A stretch of DNA of 64,000 bases. Origin: Haloarcula pelagica. Its GTDB lineage: Archaea; Halobacteriota; Halobacteria; Halobacteriales; Haloarculaceae. A program made the translations under genes and the position numbers. Shown here one piece after another: positions 7,382 to 48,087 of the stretch. The notes beneath the pieces are model-generated. The model saw only the letters and a list, made by a program, of their open reading frames with translations. It was not told the origin of the DNA and did not search any database. The stretch covers positions 1,364,001 to 1,428,000 of the forward strand of contig NZ_CP126161.1 in NCBI RefSeq assembly GCF_030127105.1. Direction: 5' to 3'. Positions within the stretch are counted from its first letter, which is position 1. Every line of letters begins with the position of its first letter.

Positions 7382-8548
7382 ATGGAGTATTCACGTCGGC
7401 GACTCCTCCAGGCGTCAGGTGCAGCAATCGCGACCGGACTCGCGGGGTGTTCCGGTGGGAGCGGTTCGGAAGGGAGCGGTGGCTCCTCCGGCGGGAGCTC
7501 GGGTGGCTCCGGCGGGACCTCCTACGAGGTCGGCCACGGCGACTACCAGACGACGGTCTCGCCGAGTTCGTTCCCCGAGAAGCTGTTCGTCTACGCCGTC
7601 CAGACCGGCTGGTCGAACTGGGGTGCGCTGATGAGCGACTTCGAGGAGCAGTACGGCCTCCCGCTGAACGACGACCAGCGATCCTCCGGCGAGGCGCTGT
7701 CGGACCTGCGTTCACACGCCCAGGACCCGACTCACTCGGCGTACAACGGCGGCTACACCTACGGTATCCTGGCGATGCAGGACGGGCTCACCCAGGCGTA
7801 CAAACCGAACGGCTGGGAGAAGGTCCCCGAGAAGCTCAAGACCGACAACGGCCACATGACCGCCACCCGGCGGATGACCACGACGGTCACCTACCGGAAG
7901 GACATCTACGAGGAGGAAGGCATCGAACCGCCCGAGACCTGGGACGACCTCAAGCGAGAGGAGATCGCCGCGAACACCCAGTTCCAGCCGCCAAACGCCG
8001 CGGTCGGGCTGGCCGGCGCGCTCTCGATCAACAACGCATACGGGGGGAGTCTCGACGACGTGCAACCGGTCGTCGACTACTACTCCGAGATGAAAGAGAA
8101 GGGGGCGGTGTTCGCCGGCAACGTCGAACAGAAGTTCAGCAAGGGCGAGATCACGACCTTCGTCGAGTACGACTACACCGGCCTCGACCTGAAGTACAAC
8201 GCCGACTCCATCGCCGAGGAGAAGGTCGGCGTCTCGCTGCTGACCGGCCCCAACGGGGAGAAGGGGGCGTTCAACCAACCGTACGGCTACGGGATGCTCA
8301 AGGGCGCACCGAACCCCGAGGCGTGTAAACTGTTCATGGACTACGTGCTCTCGCTGGAGGGCCAGCGGAAGTTCCTCGACGCCTACGTCCGGCCGATCCG
8401 GGCGCCGGAACTGGAGATGCCCGAGGAGTTCCCCGCACAGTCGGCCTACGAGGAGGCGCAGTTCCAGGTCGACTACCAGCAACTCGTCGAGAACCAGGAG
8501 GGCATCATCAACGAGATCGGGCAGGGCGTCGGCCTGACGGGGTACTGA
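7382..8548 (+). CDS. ABC importer solute-binding lipoprotein (Fe/polyamine/thiamine-type)
   Basis: A 388-residue secreted binding protein. The N-terminus has an RRRLL Tat-like arginine pair, a short hydrophobic stretch and the lipobox LAGC (Cys at 23), followed by a Gly/Ser-rich linker that is common in haloarchaeal lipoproteins. The mature part resembles the family 1/8 binding proteins of the ferric-iron, spermidine/putrescine, thiamine and 2-aminoethylphosphonate importers. It heads a tightly coupled run of two permeases, an ATPase and a metallophosphoesterase (1- or 4-base overlaps). The coupled phosphoesterase hints at a phosphorylated substrate such as a phosphonate or phosphodiester; this is inference only. 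Confidence 0.8.
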   Translation: MEYSRRRLLQASGAAIATGLAGCSGGSGSEGSGGSSGGSSGGSGGTSYEVGHGDYQTTVSPSSFPEKLFVYAVQTGWSNWGALMSDFEEQYGLPLNDDQRSSGEALSDLRSHAQDPTHSAYNGGYTYGILAMQDGLTQAYKPNGWEKVPEKLKTDNGHMTATRRMTTTVTYRKDIYEEEGIEPPETWDDLKREEIAANTQFQPPNAAVGLAGALSINNAYGGSLDDVQPVVDYYSEMKEKGAVFAGNVEQKFSKGEITTFVEYDYTGLDLKYNADSIAEEKVGVSLLTGPNGEKGAFNQPYGYGMLKGAPNPEACKLFMDYVLSLEGQRKFLDAYVRPIRAPELEMPEEFPAQSAYEEAQFQVDYQQLVENQEGIINEIGQGVGLTGY

Positions 8549-9522
8549 TGGCGACCCGAGACGAGTCGGCGCCGCTGGGACGGTTCCGGACCGGCCTCGC
8601 CAGCCTCCTCGCGCCGACGACCGAGCGCGACCGGAGTCGTCGGCGCATCGCCGCACTGGCGGCCCCCTTCCTCGTGCTTGCGACGTTCGGCGCGTTCGTC
8701 CCGCTGGCGACGATGGTGCGGATGAGCACCTCGGCGTCGAACTTCGCCATCGAGGGGCTCACGCTCGCGGCCTACGAGCGGCTGTTCACCTCGATCCTGG
8801 CCGCGGTTCCCGGTGCCGGGATCGACGCCAACCCGGTGTACGGCGAGGTCATCTGGAACTCGCTGTGGTTCGGCGCGGCCACGACCCTCGCAAGCGTCGT
8901 GATCGGCGTCGCCATCGCACACGGGTTAGAGAAGTACGACCTGCCCCGGGAGGGACTACTCGTGACCCTCATCTCGTTCCCGATCAGCCTGCCGGGTATC
9001 GTCGCCGCGTTCATGATGATCGTCTGGTTCGGCAAGACCGGCCTCCTGACGAACGTCCTGACCGTCTTCACCGGCGCCGGCCCGAACGCCGTCGCCCTGA
9101 CCGGCCAGCCCTCGGGGACCCTGCTGGCGATCACCGGCCTCTTCTTTGGTTATCTCTACTCGATGATCCCGCGGGCGACGTTCCTCCTTCGCGGGAGCTA
9201 CGCCGAGGTCAACACCGACGCCGAGGAGGCGGCCAGATCGCTGGGGGCGACCCCCTGGCAGACGTTCCGCTACGTCACGCTGCCACAGATCCGCCCGGGC
9301 ATCGTCGGCGCGCTCATCCTCACCTTCCGGACGGCACTGGCCATCTTCGGCACCGTCCTCGTGTTGAAGGCGCTGTCGGTGGTCACCTTCCGGTTCAGCC
9401 AGGAGATCAGCGTCGGCTTCGACCTCCAGATGGCGTCAGCGCTGGCGACGGTGTTTTTCGTCTTCACCGTCCTCTTTACCTTCCTGAGCCTGCGCCTGAC
9501 GAGCGCGGAGGTGGCCGGATGA
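8548..9522 (+). CDS. ABC importer permease, first subunit
   Basis: A 324-residue inner-membrane permease with about six hydrophobic segments. The cytoplasmic coupling motif is seen near the C-terminal half as EEAARSLGATPWQTFRYVTL, the EAA loop that docks on the ATPase. The closest families are the PotB/ThiP/AfuB-type permeases. Its ATG shares a base with the stop of the binding-protein gene, so the two are translated together. The partner permease overlaps its 3' end by four bases. Confidence 0.87.
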   Translation: MATRDESAPLGRFRTGLASLLAPTTERDRSRRRIAALAAPFLVLATFGAFVPLATMVRMSTSASNFAIEGLTLAAYERLFTSILAAVPGAGIDANPVYGEVIWNSLWFGAATTLASVVIGVAIAHGLEKYDLPREGLLVTLISFPISLPGIVAAFMMIVWFGKTGLLTNVLTVFTGAGPNAVALTGQPSGTLLAITGLFFGYLYSMIPRATFLLRGSYAEVNTDAEEAARSLGATPWQTFRYVTLPQIRPGIVGALILTFRTALAIFGTVLVLKALSVVTFRFSQEISVGFDLQMASALATVFFVFTVLFTFLSLRLTSAEVAG

Positions 9523-10472
9523 GCACACCCGGTGCCGACGCCGGCGACACCGCGGACTCGAATACGGGAACCGGACGCTCGGTCCCCGCCCGCGATCCGG
9601 GTCGGTTCGGCCGGCTCTCGGCGGCCGTCGGCCGGCGGGTCATCACCGCCCTGATCCTGGTGACCGTCGTCTTCCTGATCGGTCCGGTCGTGTTCACGTT
9701 CGTCGCCTCTTTCGCCGGCGAGTGGACCGGCGTCCTCCCGAGCGGGTTCGTCACGCTGGATAACTGGAAGCAGGCGCTCGGGCTGTCCTCGACGCTCGGT
9801 GCGAGCCGCGGGCTGGGCGGGTCGACGACGATCCCTATCATCGGCGCGACGATCCCGCTGCCCGAGACGCTGAGTCTCAGCATGGCGCTGGCGCTGGGCG
9901 GTGTCTTCATCAACCTCCTCGTGGGGGTCCCGATCGCCTACGCCGTGACCCGCTACGACTTCTACGGGCAGAGCTGGCTGAATACCTTCGCCGTGTTGCC
10001 GGTCGTGCCGGGGATCATCCTCGGGATCGCGTTCCTGCGGACCTATCCGAACTTCCCCAGCGCCGTCGCGCTGATGATCGGCTACTCGCTGCTGAAGGCG
10101 CCGTACATGGTGCTCGCGGTCCAGTCGTCGTTCGAGTCGATGGATCTGCGCCAGATCGAAGAGAGCGCCCGATCGCTGGGGGCCTCTTGGCCGCGGACCT
10201 TCCTGACGGTGGTCGTCCCGAACGCGAAACAGGGGATCCTCTCGGGAGCGATCGTCTGCTGGACGCTCGCGGCCGCGGAGTTCAACTTCTCGTATATCGT
10301 CTACTCGCGCGGGCCGAAGCCGTTCTCGCTGTTCCTGTTCGAGAACATCTCGAACAACCCGTTCCTGCGGGCCGCCGCCGCCATCTCGATCTACTTCCTC
10401 ATCGTCGTCGTCGTGACGGCGCTGTTGCGGTCGACCGGGGAACGGGGCTTCTCGATCGGAGGTGTCCGCTGA
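9519..10472 (+). CDS. ABC importer permease, second subunit
   Basis: A 317-residue permease. A polar N-terminal tail of about 40 residues precedes the membrane part, which ends with the EAA-type loop EESARSLGASWPRTFLTVVV. It pairs with the preceding permease as a heterodimer in the importer. The ATG at 9519 overlaps the stop of the first permease and gives a normal family length; a longer frame from 8865 is a shadow. The stop overlaps the ATPase start by one base. Confidence 0.86.
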   Translation: MSTPGADAGDTADSNTGTGRSVPARDPGRFGRLSAAVGRRVITALILVTVVFLIGPVVFTFVASFAGEWTGVLPSGFVTLDNWKQALGLSSTLGASRGLGGSTTIPIIGATIPLPETLSLSMALALGGVFINLLVGVPIAYAVTRYDFYGQSWLNTFAVLPVVPGIILGIAFLRTYPNFPSAVALMIGYSLLKAPYMVLAVQSSFESMDLRQIEESARSLGASWPRTFLTVVVPNAKQGILSGAIVCWTLAAAEFNFSYIVYSRGPKPFSLFLFENISNNPFLRAAAAISIYFLIVVVVTALLRSTGERGFSIGGVR

Positions 10473-11500
10473 TGGCAGAACAGATCAAACTCGATACAGT
10501 CACGAAGGAGTTCGGGGAAACGACCGCCGTCGACGGGGTCTCGCTGACCGTCGAACCGGGAGAGACAGTCGGGCTCGTCGGCCCGTCGGGCTGTGGGAAG
10601 ACCACGACCCTGCGGACCGTCGCGGGGTTCGAGACGCCCACCGACGGCGCGGTCCGCTTCGACGGCGAGGCGGTGACGAACGTCCCGCCCGAACAGCGGG
10701 ACGTGGGGCTTGTCTTCCAGTCCTATGCCCTGTTCAACAACATGACCGTCCGGGAGAACGTCGAGTTCGGCCTGAAGATGCGGTCGCTGCCGGCCGACGA
10801 GCGAGCGGAACGCGCCCACGAGGTGCTCTCCTTGCTCGGCATCGACGAACTGGCCGACCGGGACCCACAGACGCTCTCGGGCGGGCAACAACAGCGGGTG
10901 GGACTCGCTCGTGCGCTGGCGATCGAGCCCCGCGTCCTCCTGCTCGACGAACCGATGACCGGCCTCGACGCGAAGCTCAAGACCCGCCTGCAAGAGGAGA
11001 TGGGCGCTCTGCTGGACGACCTGGACGTGACGGCCATCTACGTCACCCACGACCAGGAGGAGGCGATGGTGATGTGTGACCGCATCGCGGTGATGAACGA
11101 CGGCCACGTCGAGCAGGTCGGCCCGCCGCGGTCGGTGTACCAGGAGCCCGAGACACCCTTCGTCGCGGAGTTCGTCGGCACGTCGAACCGGCTCCCCGCC
11201 ACCGCCCGGAACGGGACCGTCGACGTTGGCTTTACCGACATCGAGAACCGCACCGGCGCCGAGGGAAGCGTGACCGTCGTCGCCCGGCCGGAGGCGTTCG
11301 CGGTCGGCGAGGGGTCGATCACGGCGACGGTCCAGAACACGTTCTACCTGGGCGAACACGTCCGGACGGTCGCGACGCTCCCCGACGGCAGCGAGGTGAC
11401 GCTGAACCTCGACGGGACGGTCACGCCACAGGCCGGCGAGGAGGTGTCGCTGGCGCTGGACCCCGAACGGGTCCACGTCATCGAGGAGGAGCCGGCGTGA
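10472..11500 (+). CDS. ABC importer ATP-binding subunit
   Basis: A 342-residue ATPase of the PotA/FbpC type. Walker A is GPSGCGKT (about residues 37-44), the Q-loop lies in VFQSYALFNNMTV, the signature is LSGGQQQRVGLARAL, Walker B is LLLDEPMTGLD and the H-loop is VTHDQEEAM. A C-terminal domain of about 100 residues (TOBE-like) follows, consistent with regulation by substrate or ligands in this family. It energises the two upstream permeases. It overlaps the metallophosphoesterase gene by four bases. Confidence 0.92.
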   Translation: MAEQIKLDTVTKEFGETTAVDGVSLTVEPGETVGLVGPSGCGKTTTLRTVAGFETPTDGAVRFDGEAVTNVPPEQRDVGLVFQSYALFNNMTVRENVEFGLKMRSLPADERAERAHEVLSLLGIDELADRDPQTLSGGQQQRVGLARALAIEPRVLLLDEPMTGLDAKLKTRLQEEMGALLDDLDVTAIYVTHDQEEAMVMCDRIAVMNDGHVEQVGPPRSVYQEPETPFVAEFVGTSNRLPATARNGTVDVGFTDIENRTGAEGSVTVVARPEAFAVGEGSITATVQNTFYLGEHVRTVATLPDGSEVTLNLDGTVTPQAGEEVSLALDPERVHVIEEEPA

Positions 11501-12399
11501 CGGCCGGGCCGGCGCTCGCCCGGTTGGACCGGCCGGCCACCGACGAGTCCGTCCGGCTCACCGTCGTCGCGGACCCCCACGTCACCGCGAGCGAACGCGG
11601 GACCTGGAAGTGTTACCACCGGACAGTCGACCGGCTGCGGACGGCGCTTGCCGGCGCCGACCGCCGCGGCGCCGACGCCGTCGTCCTGGCGGGCGACCTC
11701 ACCGCCGACGGCCGCCCGGACGAGTTCGACACCGTCGACGAACTGCTCGGGGAGACACCCGCCGACCCGTTGGTCGTCCCCGGCAACCACGACGTGCCCA
11801 AGACCTTCGACGGCCACGACACGCCGGCGGTCGCGGCCTTCGAGGAACGCTACGGCTCACTGCCGGCCGCCAGGGAGGTCGGCCCCGTGACGCTGCTTGC
11901 CGTCAACAGCGCGAGCGACCCGGGCGGGCGCCTCCGGGACACCTGGGGCGGCGCCGTCGGTCCGGCCCAGCGGGAGTGGCTGGCCGACCGGGCGGCCGAC
12001 GCCGCCCTCCCGATTCTCGTCACACACCACCCACTGGCGGCGCTGCCCGAACACGACGGCCCGCCGTGGACGAACTTCCAGGCGCGGGACCGCGAGGCCG
12101 TCCGGTCGGTGTGTCGCCGCCACGGTGTCGAACTGGTCGTCAGCGCCCATCACCACGTCCCCACGGTGGCGCGCCACGGCGGCGTCGCGGAACTGCTCTC
12201 GCCGGCTGTCTGTTCGTTCCCCCAGGCCGCCCTGGACATCGTGATCGGCCCCGACGGGACGACGGCACGGCTGGTCCCGCTCGCCGACGCCGCCGGCGTC
12301 GAGGAGGCGTATCACCTCGCCCGCGGCGGGAAGGCACTGGGCCAGGGCATCTGTTCGCTGGCCGAGTCCCGGCTGGGACGACTCCCGCTCGCGGAGTGA
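11497..12399 (+). CDS. Calcineurin-like metallophosphoesterase
   Basis: A 300-residue phosphoesterase. The dinuclear metal motifs are visible in order: VVADPHV, LAGDLTADG, VPGNHDVPK, VTHHPLAAL and SAHHHV. This order is typical of the Icc/CpdA-like branch, which cleaves phosphodiesters. The start is GTG at 11497, overlapping the ATPase stop by four bases, so it is translated with the importer genes. The coupling suggests that it acts on the imported compound or a product of it. No signal peptide is seen, so it is probably cytoplasmic. Substrate unknown. Confidence 0.85.
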   Translation: MTAGPALARLDRPATDESVRLTVVADPHVTASERGTWKCYHRTVDRLRTALAGADRRGADAVVLAGDLTADGRPDEFDTVDELLGETPADPLVVPGNHDVPKTFDGHDTPAVAAFEERYGSLPAAREVGPVTLLAVNSASDPGGRLRDTWGGAVGPAQREWLADRAADAALPILVTHHPLAALPEHDGPPWTNFQARDREAVRSVCRRHGVELVVSAHHHVPTVARHGGVAELLSPAVCSFPQAALDIVIGPDGTTARLVPLADAAGVEEAYHLARGGKALGQGICSLAESRLGRLPLAE

Positions 12400-40938: not shown

Positions 40939-41892
40939 ATGGACCACGAGAGCGCCGGTGTCGCCTGCCAGCGGATCCTCGACGCGGTCGGGAGCGCGGT
41001 GGTGGCCGACGAGTCGTTTCTGGAGACGGTGCTGACTGGGATCCTCGCGAGAGGGCACGTCCTGCTCGAGGACGTGCCCGGGACCGGCAAGACGCTGACC
41101 GCGCGCTCCTTTGCGACCGTGCTGGACCTCTCCTTTTCGCGCATCCAGTTCACGCCGGACCTGCTGCCCGCGGACGTGACCGGCTCGAACGTCTACGACG
41201 AGGCGAGCGGCGAGTTCGACTTCCAGCCCGGCCCGATCTTCGGGAACGTGGTGCTCGCCGACGAGATCAACCGCGCGCCGCCCAAGACCCAGGCGGCGCT
41301 GCTGGAGGCGATGGGCGAGCGCCAGGTGACCGTCGACGGCCAGACCCACCCGCTGCCGGAGCCGTTCTTCGTCATCGCGACCCAGAACCCCGTCGAACAC
41401 GAGGGGACCTTCGGGCTGCCCGAGGCCCAGCGGGACCGCTTCGTCGTCAAGACCGAGATGGGGTATCCCGACTTCGCCGGCGAGCGTGACCTGATCGACC
41501 GCCGGGCCGACCGGACCGAACAGGCCCCGAGCGTCGCCGATATCGTCGATCACCGCCAGGTCCCCGCGCTCCAGGCGGCCGCCGAGACGGTCGCCGTCGA
41601 CGGGGCGCTCCGGGACTACGTCGTGGAACTGGGCCGGGAGACCCGCGACGACGACCGGGTCGACGTTGGCGTCTCGCCCCGTGGAATCCAGCGGCTGTTC
41701 GAGGCCGCCAGGGCGCGGGCGGTGATCGACGGACGCGACTACGTCGTCCCGGACGACATCCGCGGGGTCGTCGAGCAGGTGTTCGCTCACCGACTGGTCC
41801 TGACCGCCGACGCCGACGTGCGCGGGACCGATCCCGCAGCCGTCGTCCGGGACGTGCTCGGCCGGGTCGACGTGCCTGCCGTCGACCCCTGA
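40939..41892 (+). CDS. MoxR-family AAA+ ATPase
   Basis: A 317-residue ATPase. Walker A is EDVPGTGKT (Lys 51), Walker B is VVLADEINRAPPKTQ, and sensor 1 lies in FVIATQNPVEHEGTF; a C-terminal lid domain follows. MoxR proteins act as chaperones that mature or insert partner proteins, classically DUF58/VWA proteins encoded nearby. Here the partners lie on the opposite strand and convergent, with stop codons abutting at 41892/41893. The reading frame is intact, in contrast to all four genes of the neighbouring unit. Confidence 0.92.
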   Translation: MDHESAGVACQRILDAVGSAVVADESFLETVLTGILARGHVLLEDVPGTGKTLTARSFATVLDLSFSRIQFTPDLLPADVTGSNVYDEASGEFDFQPGPIFGNVVLADEINRAPPKTQAALLEAMGERQVTVDGQTHPLPEPFFVIATQNPVEHEGTFGLPEAQRDRFVVKTEMGYPDFAGERDLIDRRADRTEQAPSVADIVDHRQVPALQAAAETVAVDGALRDYVVELGRETRDDDRVDVGVSPRGIQRLFEAARARAVIDGRDYVVPDDIRGVVEQVFAHRLVLTADADVRGTDPAAVVRDVLGRVDVPAVDP

Positions 41893-43478
41893 CTACCGGA
41901 GGGCGGCGACCAGCGCCAGGACGGCCAGGACACAGACGACGAGCGCGGCGAGCGCGGTCCCTGGCGGGACCGACAACGCGCCACCGGCACCCCCGGCGAG
42001 CGCCGCGGCGACACCGGCACCGACGCTCCCGACGGCGACGGTCCCGCCGACGTGGAGCAGTTCGGTCCGACGGGTGCCGACGGCCGCCCCGAGTTCGCGG
42101 CCGAGCGTCGCCCCGAACGCGCCGGCGTCCCAGACGACGACGGCGGCGACGATCCCCCGAGGACCAGCGCCGGCGACGCCGACAGCGTCCCCGCGGCTCC
42201 CGTCGCGACGAACAGCCCCGCCCCGGCGAGCGCCGCCTCGCTCCCCCGGTCGCCGACGTAGCCGACGAACAGGACGGTCCAGAGCGCGCCCGTCACCCCG
42301 ACGAGCGCGAGCAGCGACGCGGCCGTGAGCCCCACCGCGACGGTACGCGGCCCGTAGAACTCGATCGGAGCCGAGACGAGGGCGTCCACGGCGCCGGCCA
42401 GGAACGCCGGCGCCTCGGCCCGGACGAGCGCCGCCCCGCTGCTGACGACCGGGCCGCCGGCCACGAGCGCCGCCGCCGTCAGCCCGACGCCACCGACGTA
42501 CGGCGCCAGCACGAGTCCCACACGACCGGGCGCACGCCGGACCGTCCGGCGGAGCAGCCACACCGCGAGGACGACCGCGAGCGCGGCGAGCGTCGTCCAC
42601 CACAGCGCCAGCCTGAGGGCCGGCGACCCCGAGACGGCGACGGCGAGGTCGTAGAGCGCCGGGACCGTCTCGCTGATCGCCGACTGGCCGGCGAGCAGTT
42701 CGATCAGTCCGGCGGCGAGCGCCGCCAGCAGCGCCAGGAGTGCGAGCGCTCCCAGGCCCTGGCGGGTCCGCCCGAGGGCCGCCCGGATGTCCGGTCCCTC
42801 CGGTGTCGCCGACGCGAGTTCCGCCAGCGGGAGCGCGCCGACGGCACGCGAACCGAGCCACGCGGTCACGGCGACCAGAGACAGGAACACGCCGAGATGG
42901 GTCCGCCCGGGGGTCGGGGTCAGCAGCGGCCCGGCGACGACGCCTACGAGCGACGGCGAGCCGTCGGCGGAGAGGACGCCAGCGACGGGGATTACCAGGG
43001 CGACGGCCGCGACGACGGTCACGGGCAGCGCGGTCCGGGCGACGACCCCGGCGTAGCGCCCGACACGGGCGGTGTCGACGGCTCCGGCGGTCGCCGCCGC
43101 GGCGCCGAAGACGGCGAGGAGACAGCCGCCGACGACCAGCACCGTCGCCCCGATGTCGACCAGGATCGGTCGCGCCAGCGCGGGGCCGGCGACGGGGAAG
43201 GAAGCGACCACGAGCGCCGAAAGCGTCCACACGAAGGCCACGCCGGCCCCGGCCGCGATCGGGACCGCCAGGAGGCTCGCGAGCAGCGTTCGGCTCGCGC
43301 TCCGGCGCTGTCCGCCGACGAGGGCGAGCGCGACCGCCAGCCCGACGGCCGCCGGGACACCGACCGCCGCCTGGCGGCCGACCGGAACCGTCCCGAGCAA
43401 ACGGGTGACAAGCACCGCCGTCAGCCCGAGAACCACGCCGAGGCTCGTCCGCGGCAGCCTCGCCGGCGGGCCGGTCAC
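41893..43478 (-). pseudogene. Large multispanning membrane protein (DUF7519-like), frameshifted
   Basis: An intact version would have about 528 residues and more than ten hydrophobic segments, in the position where haloarchaeal MoxR-DUF58 clusters encode a DUF7519-type protein. The frame from the ATG at 43478 stays membrane-like to ALVLGG, then turns into Ser/Pro/Arg-rich nonsense. The frame offset by one continues with IVAAVVVWDAGAFGATLG and further hydrophobic helices to the stop at 41893. The break falls in a C-run on the plus strand (42154-42158): one base missing or two extra. The start overlaps the DUF58 stop by four bases. Confidence 0.72.
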
Positions 43479-44807
43479 TCGCCGAACACCTCCGTCACTG
43501 CCGTCCGAAGCGCCGCGTCGAGCGGCCGGTCCAGGTCCCAGTCGACGACTGCCGTTCCGAGGTGTTCGATCCGGCGCAGTCCCTGGGCCCGTTCGAGCGC
43601 GAGGACCGACGCCCCCAGCGAGTCACGGCGCGTCACGTCCGGGCTGACCAGCGTCGTCGGGTAGTCCCGCCGGGTCAGTTCCGTCAGCAGCGAGTGCGCC
43701 CACTCGTCGGTCGCCGGGGAGACGACGACGACCTGGGCCGTCGCCGGGAGACGCGCGAGCACCGCACGAATCGCGTTCCGACCGCCGTCGGCCTCGGTGC
43801 GTTTGCTCGCCACCGGCCCATCGTCGCTGTCGCCCGGCCGGCGCGTCGCGGCCCGACCCACCCCGTCGACGACCCGCGCCGCCCGGTCGCCGGCGTGTCT
43901 GCCGCTGTCGTCGACCCACACCAGTCCGTCGGGATCGACCCCGCCGGGAACGTCGGCGTCCGTGAGCCCGACGGCGGCGACGCTGGTGACGGCCCCCGCC
44001 TGCGAGAGCGTCCCCAGCAGCCGCTGGGCGGCGTAGGCCGACAGTTCGGCGCCGGTCGGGAAGGCGGGGTCCGGCGTCGCCCGGGCGGGAGGCCGGGCGT
44101 CGACGAGCAGTACCGTCCTGACCGCGCGCTGCTCGCGGTAGTCGACGGTCGTCAGGTCGGTGGTCTTGGCGTAGCGGCGCCAGTCGATCCGGCCGGCCGG
44201 GTCGCCGTACTGGTACTGCCGCGTCGAGTGAAACGCCAGCCCGCTGCCGCCGCTGTCGGTCGAGTGTGTCCCCGCGAACGGGAGCGTCGCGTCGGTGAGC
44301 GGCCCCGATTCGACGGCGTTGGCACAGGTCAGGGACGTGTCGCCGGCGACGGCGACCTCGGTCGTGACGACCTCGCTGGCGGCCAGCGGCCGGACCCGGG
44401 CGTCGGCGTCGGCGAAGGCGTGTGTGCCCCGCTTGGCGCGGACCGTGTAGCCGACGGTCACCGTCTCGCCGGGGCGAAGCGCCGTGCAACACCGGGGCGA
44501 CCCGTCGACGACCGCCAGTTCGTCCGGAACGCCGTCGACGAGGCGAACGTCGGTCAGCGTCCGCTCGCCGGTGTTCTCGACGGTCAGTTCGACGGCCGCC
44601 AGCTCCGGGGAGCGGGCGGTCGTCGACGGAGCGCGTGGCCCCGAGCGACACCGGTTCGGGAACCCTGGAGAGCGCGCCGTAGCAGACGTAGGCGAGCGGG
44701 ATCGCCGTCGCCGCCAGGAGGAGCGGCTCGCCCGAGAGCAGCGCCAGCCCGACGAGGACGAGCGCGCCGGCCAGCCCGCCGGCCCAGCGGTGGACGCGCC
44801 GGCGCAT
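43475..44807 (-). pseudogene. DUF58 domain protein, frameshifted
   Basis: The gene starts at the ATG at 44807 with two membrane segments (GGLAGALVLVGLALL and ATAIPLAYVCYGAL), as usual for DUF58 proteins. At about 44604-44611 the frame changes; the offset frame continues ELAAVELTVENTGERTLTD and reaches the DUF58 core with YQYGDPAGRIDWRRYAKT, then a VWA-like C-terminal half to the stop at 43475. One extra base or two missing bases at the CCCCGG site would explain the break. DUF58 proteins work with MoxR ATPases. Read as intact the protein would have about 444 residues. Confidence 0.75.
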
Positions 44808-44808
44808 C

Positions 44809-45410
44809 TCAGCGACCCTCCGTTGCCCGTCGCTCGACGGCGGCGACGGCTCGGTCGAGGCGGCGCTCGCGCTCGCGCTCGGGGTCGAGCCACAGCCGGA
44901 GGCGGGCGCCGACCGGGAACGGCGTCTCGGGTGACAGCACGGCGGCCGCGATCCGGTCGTCGGTCCAGGTCCCGGAACGGACCGCCTCGCGGGCGGCCGA
45001 TCGCTCGCCGTCGGCCGCTCGGGCGTGTGCCGTCGTCGCTACCTCGCTGAGCCGCTCGACGACAGTCCGCATCGCCGCGTCGTCACCCTCGATCGCGTTG
45101 CCGACGGCCGCGTCGAGCCGGCCCCGACCAGCGAGTCCGGGGAGACGGTCGCCGCCTCCGGCGGGCTCTCGATCGCGGTCGCGTAGCCGGTCGTCCCCTG
45201 CTCGGCGCTACCGGCGGTGGGCCAGGCCGCGACCGCCCCGACGAGGAGGACGGCGACCCCAAGCAGCGAGAGCAGCGCGGCCGGCGGGACGGCGTCGAGC
45301 GTCCCGAGCAGGCCGTCGATCCCCAGCGCCCCCGGCGCGAAGACGATGGCGGTCGCGAGCGCCGTCGCCAGCAGCCCGACGGTCCCGAGCGCGACGGGTC
45401 GCCAGCGCAT
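44809..45410 (-). pseudogene. Small membrane protein (DUF7269-like), frameshifted
   Basis: From the ATG at 45410 two hydrophobic segments are read (VALGTVGLLATALATAIVF and AALLSLLGVAVLLVGAVAA), followed by a polar stretch to VSPDSLVGAG. The sensible sequence then continues in the next frame as RLDAAVGNAIEGDDAAMRTV and a charged helical C-terminus to the stop at 44809. The break lies at a C-run (45122-45125); one base is missing or two are extra. The intact protein would have about 200 residues. It lies between the transglutaminase and DUF58 genes with one-base overlap and one-base gap. Function unknown. Confidence 0.68.
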
Positions 45411-48087
45411 CAGGCCTCGCCCTCCCCGTCGGCTGCCGCCTCGATCGCCTCGATGGCCGCCTGGACGGCCGCGACCCGCTCGTCGGCCCCGCGGTCGCCG
45501 TACTCGACCGCGCGGAAGGCGTCCCGGAGCGTCCGGACGGCCTCGGGCGGGAGGCCGTCCTCGGCGACGGCGTGGGCCGCGATGTCGCCCGGCGAGTGTG
45601 TCCAGTACCGCGGGAGCGAGACGTGCGTCAGGAAGCGTCGCCAGGCCTCGCGGATCGTGACCTGTGCCGCCGGCGGGTCGGCGCCGTCCCCCGGTGTCGA
45701 CGCCGTCCCAGCGGTCGCGCGCTCGGCGGTCCCCGCGCGCTCGATCCACCGGCGGAGCCGGGCCAGCAGTTCGGTGACGGTCGTCTCGCGGGCGATCAGG
45801 GCACGCAACGCGGCCGAGAGCCGTGCGAGCGATCGGTCGAGCGACGCCGCCAGCGCGATCAGCGCACCGACGGCGGCCTGGACCGCCGCGTCGAGCCAGC
45901 GACGCACCGCGCCGGGCGTCAGCCCGCTGCGCCGAACACCGACCGCGACGCCGCCGACACAGAGCGCCGCCGCGAGGACGACGGCCGCGAGATTTCGGCC
46001 GAGCCGTCCACGGTGACCCGCTCGCGCTGGCCGTACCGGGAGACGGTCAGGTCCGTGCCGGCCGCGACCGGGAGCCGGACCGTCGCCGTGCCGTCGACGC
46101 CAGTTCGGCCGACACGGGTGCCGTCCTGAACCACTGGTGCGTCCGCCACCGGATCGCCGTCGAGCGTCGCGGTCACGGTCAGACCGGTCCCGGGGAGCGC
46201 GAGCGGGAGCGTCGGGTCCGCCGAGACGACCAGCGGCGCCAGCGACAGCGTCTCGTTGCCGCCGACGGCGTCCCGGCGGACGGCGACGGTCACGTCGCCT
46301 GGTTCGGTCGGCAGCGTCACGGTCGCCCGGCCGCTCGCGCCGGTCGTCCCCACGCGCCGGCCGTCGACCGTCACCGTCCCGTCCCGGACCGGCACGTCCT
46401 CGACGCTCGCGACGACGGTCACGGTGGCGCCGGTGACCGCCTCGCCGGAGACGGTGACCGTCGCCGCCGTCGAGACGTTGAACGTCTCGTTGGCCGTCTG
46501 TTGGGCTGGCGGACCGCCGACCGCGTAGAACCGGTCGCTCGGGCCGCCTCCGACGGCGGGAACCGTAGGTACGACCGCCGACTGACGGTCCGACGGGACC
46601 GACACGCCGACATCGAGCGTCGCGTCGTAGGGGACCCGGCCGACGACGGCTCCCTGGGCGTCGGTCCGGCCGACGGCCCTCCCGTTGAACGTGACCGTCG
46701 CGTTTTCGACCGGGCTGCCGTCCCGGGTCACCGTCACCAGCACCGGCGCGCCCGGCGTCGCAGTGCGGTTGAGGCGGACGGAGACGCCCTCCGTGGTGTC
46801 GGTCGGATCGTCGCGCTCCTCGGCCTCGGTGGGCTCCGGATCGCCCTCGTCCGACGGGGTGTCCTCGGGGAGCGGCGTCTGGGGCTGGACGGTCCCGATG
46901 GACGGCCCTTCGGCGCCGACGCCGAACTGTTCGCCGGGGCTCCCGCGCTCGCTGGCCCGGTAGTCCTCGCCCGCCGCGGCCATCGCGGCCTGCTCGGCAG
47001 CCAGGCGTTCCCGTCCCGGCGTCGGGTCGAAGCGAACCCACCCCCGGTCGGGGAAGTACACCTCGACCCAGGCGTGGGCGTTCAGCCCGCGGACGGTGTA
47101 GGTCCCCTCGCCGGTCCGCTCGCCCGTCGAGTAGCCGACGACGTAGCGGGCGGGGACCCCCTGACTGCGCAGCATCGCCGTCATCGCGGTCGCGAAGTAC
47201 TCGCAGTAGCCCGCCTCCATCTCGAAGACGAACTGCGAGGCGACGCGCTCGTCGGGTTCGTCGCTGACGTTCAGCGAGTACGCCTTCTCGGTCTCCAGCC
47301 ACCGCTCGATCGTCGTCGCCGTCTCGTAGGGGGAGTCGCTGCCGGCCGTCAGGTCGTCGGTAAACGGCCCGAGTCGCTGGCGCGTCCCGGGCGGGAGGGC
47401 GGTGTAGCGCTCCTCGACGGCCGCCGGGTAGTCGCGCCCGCTGGTCCGCAACACCGCCGGCTCCCGGGCCGGTCGGACGCTGCTCCCCTGGTAGGCGGTG
47501 CCGGCCGGGAGCGACCCGTCGGCCCGGATCGCTCCGGCGTCGGTCACCATCAGTCCCTCCCGAGAGACGGTCCGGGGCCGCCAGACCGTCGGGAGCGACG
47601 ACGCCGACCGTTCCAGCGTGACCGCGTAGCGCACCTCGGTGCCGGTGCCCGAACCGACGCCGGGAGGGATCGGGCCGTCGTAGGGAGCGAGGTCGGTGTC
47701 GGTCTCCCAGCCGGACCCGGTGTAGGTCTCGTAGGCGCCGGTCCGCCAGTACGCGGCGTCGGTGCTCTGTGCGGTGAAGTGAACGTCGGTGTCCCGGGAC
47801 TGGAAGGGGTTCTCGGCGGTGTCGACCCCGCCGACGGTCGTCGAGGTGCCCGGGTTCAGCGCGCCGAGGTCGCCGCTCGCGCCGAGGCCGGCGTCGGGAC
47901 CGGGGCCGCGCTGGCCCTCGGGCGGCAGCGGGACCAGCGACTCGGCGGGGCTGTCGCCGGCCGGTGCCAGAAGCGGCAGGACGGCCGTCGCCAGGACGAT
48001 CGCGACGGCACAGACCCCGACCAGGACCACTCGGGAGTACTCGCGCGCGTACCCGCCCTCGGTGGCGGTGGCGTCGTCTCCGGACAT
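45410..48087 (-). pseudogene. Transglutaminase-like/DUF4129 membrane protein, frameshifted
   Basis: The first gene of the unit, about 893 residues if intact. An N-terminal membrane segment (VVLVGVCAVAIVLATAVLPLL) precedes an outside region with the transglutaminase core: Cys in EAGYCEYFATAMTAML, His in LNAHAWVEVYF and Asp in WVRFDPTPG. Several Ig-like or carboxypeptidase-regulatory-like beta repeats follow. At about 45985-46010 the frame breaks after VTVDGSA; the offset frame continues NLAAVVLAAALCVGG (membrane segment) and a DUF4129-like cytoplasmic tail ending at 45410. One missing or two extra bases explain it. Confidence 0.75.

Follow-up and report, generated by a model that had tools for sequence, protein, structure and literature searches.

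The 64-kb window analysed here, the whole stretch from position 1,364,001 to 1,428,000 of a 3.53-Mb contig (4.46-Mb genome in four contigs, estimated 99.96% complete), contains a cluster in which Pfam identified MoxR, DUF58 and transglutaminase/DUF4129 proteins encoded side by side. Positions below are those of the window unless preceded by C1. Four genes lie on the minus strand: a transglutaminase/DUF4129 gene (45410–48087; TgpA_N, Transglut_core and Fn3_arc domains with a C-terminal DUF4129), a small membrane protein gene of family DUF7269 (44809–45410), a DUF58 gene (43475–44807) and a large membrane protein gene with a C-terminal DUF7519 (41893–43475), each delineated by tblastn, a codon model, Pfam and ortholog profiles. 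The MoxR AAA+ ATPase gene (40939–41892, plus strand; AAA_3 and AAA_lid_2 by Pfam) is convergent with these four and intact, as the original prediction had it. The neighbourhood of the MoxR cluster is preserved in relatives. Judged by family membership, the partners of the MoxR AAA+ chaperone in the intact operon would be a DUF58 protein and a membrane transglutaminase. MoxR and transglutaminase genes occur together a second time in the same genome, at C1:2.24 Mb (L046, C1:2234000–2252000, at 7832–11985 of that locus), and there both genes are open.

Each of the four minus-strand genes shifted frame once, as seen by three-frame translation and by tblastn with intact ORFs of same-genus relatives as queries against the window. 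The transglutaminase match ran from 48087 to 46003 in frame –2 and then from 45952 to 45461 in frame –1; the DUF7269 gene matched at 45395–45120 (frame –3) and 45117–44830 (frame –2), DUF58 at 44807–44604 (frame –3) and 44605–43484 (frame –1), and the DUF7519 gene at 43475–42159 (frame –3) and 42156–42028 (frame –2). Both halves of every broken gene thus matched single-frame orthologs, and in the transglutaminase gene Pfam placed the Transglut_core and TgpA_N domains upstream of the break and DUF4129 downstream of it. As a check independent of tblastn, we trained a codon-model Viterbi decoder on this chromosome, without use of homology; it switched frame at 46002/46003, 45118/45119, 44609/44610 and 42157/42158. 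Junctions were also scored against profiles of 12 orthologs, and the best ones fell at about 45996–46011, 45119, 44600–44618 and 42158. The joined reading outscored the unshifted reading for the transglutaminase (1043 vs 839 bits), the DUF7269 gene (177 vs 46 bits), DUF58 (584 vs 79 bits) and the DUF7519 gene (400 vs 292 bits).

The four breaks can be placed as follows, all on the minus strand. The transglutaminase gene is one base short at 45996–46011 (local GC 76.4%; longest G/C run within 12 bases, 2), the DUF7269 gene is one base short within 45113–45128, at about 45118–45125 (77.7% GC; G/C run of 4), the DUF58 gene has one base too many at 44600–44618 (75.1% GC; run of 4), and the DUF7519 gene is one base short within 42152–42161, at about 42155–42160 (77.0% GC; run of 5). 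The original prediction had claimed, from the letters of the window, that each gene reads in two frames with a single joint, that three breaks lack a base and one has a base extra, and that at least two lie in short C/G runs. The three methods bear out the joints, the direction and number of the breaks agree, and G/C runs of 4–5 occur at or close to three of the four sites. Its further remark that it had noticed no similar break in any other full-length gene of the window also held up, as the Viterbi decoder flagged no further same-strand frame break over the 64 kb.

Relatives carry the same genes without these breaks. All four genes were single-frame in 16 of the 17 relatives examined across the whole cluster, and the transglutaminase was one open frame of 910–964 aa in 12 same-genus genomes. 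For the DUF7269 gene, the N-terminal query of the scan was out of frame, and single-frame status was therefore taken from single ORFs and from ORFs at least about 200 aa long. The sole exception, G002 (2 contigs, 94% complete), had two frame breaks in the transglutaminase only (L048, G002 C1, 9911 and 10361), at other positions than here and at a local GC of about 76%. These could be assembly errors of the same sort. Offsets shared with relatives, which had been put forward earlier as a possible sign of a real feature, were not found. Intact clusters can be equally GC-rich: the loci of G017, G004 and G040 reach 77.8–78.5% GC, indicating that GC-richness alone does not break these genes.

On both sides of every site the two frames remain coding and conserved, which is what programmed ribosomal frameshifting joining the two frames of each gene would look like. 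However, every protein lies in one frame in those 16 relatives, the G002 sites differ so that no break position is conserved among the orthologs, the shifts go in both directions, and inspection revealed no motif common to the sites. We consider programmed frameshifting extremely improbable.

Breaks of this kind also occur commonly in other parts of the same chromosome, which the window alone could not reveal. We ran the same codon-model decoder over 2.0 Mb of it (C1, 0.2–1.8 and 2.2–2.6 Mb, of the 4.46-Mb genome). The scan returned 39 raw frame-break calls, from which 28 were kept: the four of the cluster and 24 others, curated from 35 raw calls, each a single-base frame break in an otherwise intact gene. 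The 24 lie at C1 positions 223227, 288852, 361721, 476980, 537302, 616552, 653770, 708819, 974698, 1512594, 1515213, 1515755, 1527666, 1574306, 1574770, 1782542, 1782783, 2204100, 2236401, 2408671, 2443560, 2472002, 2540880 and 2598841. The 11 calls set aside, judged false or doubtful, comprised those in out-of-frame threonine/proline- or aspartate-rich linkers, in repeat-rich genes or at ordinary gene ends, and in addition the doubtful ones at C1:2360105/2360314 and 537007.

Some of the 24 further breaks were checked with Pfam, and in several of these a single family was split across the break, namely in a PALP enzyme gene (family positions 1–136, then 143–295), a CobD gene (2–213, then 221–264), a GlcNAc-2-epimerase gene (GlcNAc_2-epim, 1–174, then 178–254) and a DAO gene (2–209, then 225–352). 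Other breaks separated adjacent domains that belong to one known architecture, in a Na/Ca exchanger, TmcA, a glycosyltransferase and a prolidase-like protein. The same type of lesion therefore recurs in unrelated genes, where it follows GC content and G/C runs as would be expected of consensus errors. The gene broken at about C1:616552 (73.6% GC) has a C-terminal part that looks similar, on visual inspection, to the DUF4129 end of the transglutaminase. In 400 kb of the relative G012 we found no frame breaks, with just 1.4 expected in that sample, as GC-rich DNA is scarce there; this zero therefore carries little weight.

The frequency of these breaks depended steeply on local GC. With the cluster excluded, the rate per 100 kb was about 0.2 below 68% GC, 0.9 at 68–70%, 2.8 at 70–72%, 6.5 at 72–74%, 14 at 74–76% and 21 above 76%. 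A Poisson regression, likewise fitted without the cluster, gave an approximately 2.6-fold increase in rate per 2 additional GC points (likelihood-ratio chi2 = 45). The cluster is the GC-richest 4-kb stretch (76.7%) in the 2.0 Mb scanned; in 2-kb steps, GC was 75–77% across 42001–48000 compared to 63–73% across the remaining window. At a uniform genome-wide rate only 0.07 breaks would be expected in 6.2 kb, and four would be very rare (P about 1e-6). The GC fit instead predicts 2.1 breaks in the 6.2 kb of the cluster (P of at least 4 = 0.17). Once local GC is accounted for, four breaks in 6.2 kb are thus unremarkable. For the window outside the cluster the same fit gave 1.2 expected breaks, and none was found.

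The lesions were also alike in direction. The ratio of short to extra breaks was 3:1 for the cluster against 19:5 outside it, and G/C runs of at least 5 were present at 32% of breaks compared to 3.5% of GC-matched positions. Slippage at short G/C runs that switches the genes, with the assembly having caught the off state, would fit the runs of 4–5 at or near three of the sites, and the genes are predicted to encode membrane or surface proteins. Yet such runs are ubiquitous (12,395 runs of 4 and 2,518 of 5 in 2.0 Mb) and shorter than typical slippage tracts. No long homopolymer or tandem-repeat tract was present at the breaks, the longest G/C runs being 5 (DUF7519), 4 (DUF7269), 4 (DUF58) and 2 (transglutaminase), so that one site has no run to slip on, and the four site contexts differ. 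Phase variation would also need all four genes to be off at once, and 16 of the 17 relatives, which share no break site, are in frame, while metabolic genes such as CobD are broken alike. Phase-variable slippage, one of three causes offered originally, is unsupported by these data and in our judgement highly improbable.

Decay of the whole pathway, another of those causes, would mean that the lineage recently dropped a surface or envelope pathway, with one single-base indel per gene. The breaks hit four side-by-side genes of a single pathway and spare their neighbours, and the related MoxR-transglutaminase locus elsewhere could render the cluster dispensable. In addition, the four proteins were 2–8 points less identical than those of other species to three more distant same-genus genomes, with MoxR not clearly lower; we take this deficit as a weak sign contrary to the error reading. 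On the other hand, the coding runs contain no nonsense-type lesion and no larger deletions, and conservation after the breaks is about the same as before them. Accelerated divergence was not seen apart from that small deficit to the three same-genus genomes: identity to G040, an outgroup from another family, equalled that of intact orthologs for the transglutaminase (0.500 vs 0.507), the DUF7269 gene (0.428 vs 0.427), DUF58 (0.495 vs 0.500) and the DUF7519 gene (0.349 vs 0.338). Four independent indels with no other damage would be an unlikely pattern of decay. Moreover, unrelated genes, including metabolic ones, carry the same lesions in proportion to GC, and both genes of the second locus remain open. 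Decay of the pathway is therefore poorly supported, and we regard it as very unlikely. A variant in which an unusually high, GC-dependent indel mutation rate produced four real recent indels, inactivating the MoxR-linked envelope operon of the strain and hitting other genes too, is in our view very unlikely.

We believe that the four breaks are single-base errors in the consensus of the assembly, not mutations, and we assign this reading a probability of roughly 0.93; that the errors sit in the consensus is inferred. Each break is an indel of one base in a gene with intact orthologs, as a consensus error would be. The assembly would lose single bases in GC-rich DNA (about 4 in 5 cases) or, less often, gain them (about 1 in 5), often at short G/C runs, and base-calling or polishing would be the probable source. 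The cluster would have collected four such errors because it is the GC-richest 4-kb stretch of the chromosome examined. The transglutaminase site, with no run longer than 2 nearby, is contrary to this reading. Locally poor sequence quality, the third cause put forward originally, is strongly supported by the chromosome-wide occurrence of the same type of break, its steep rise with GC and the extreme GC of the cluster. Neither decay nor phase variation is needed as an explanation. As biology, the four breaks are almost certainly not a real feature, and the organism, like its relatives, very probably has the transglutaminase/DUF4129, DUF7269, DUF58 and DUF7519 genes in intact form beside its intact MoxR gene.

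If consensus error is the cause, the reference chromosome would contain about one artificial frame break in every 80 kb, with a much higher density in its GC-richest parts. Reports of lost genes or of pseudogenes made from this assembly should be checked against reads, especially those concerning GC-rich membrane or envelope genes. A codon-model scan for frame breaks, regressed on local GC, can tell clustered error from decay without reads.

Errors of long reads are mostly short indels at homopolymers, with deletions peaking after runs of 4–5 (PMC12007338). The gene-fragmenting indel errors described there resemble ours in being single-base and mostly deletions, in lying at short homopolymers of 4–5 and in affecting genes that are intact in relatives; they differ in that here the rate follows local GC very steeply and the runs involved are G/C runs. 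Most frameshifted genes without a frameshifted homolog are expected to stem from sequencing errors (PMC3711429), and the GeneTack survey expects its singleton frameshifts to be such errors rather than genuine indels (PMC3711429). The breaks reported here are likewise validated by homologs and absent from orthologs, but unlike the GeneTack singletons (PMC3711429), four of them fall in one 6-kb cluster, which GC explains. As for the genes themselves, the adjacent MoxR, DUF58 and transglutaminase/DUF4129 genes here correspond to the aaa-atp, duf58 and tgm core genes of the PFNA cluster of bifidobacteria (PMC8430577), where DUF58 is described as having no known role (PMC8430577). The haloarchaeal cluster is not adjoined by the kinase and FN3 genes found in PFNA; it has the DUF7269 and DUF7519 membrane proteins and a MoxR gene convergent to the rest.
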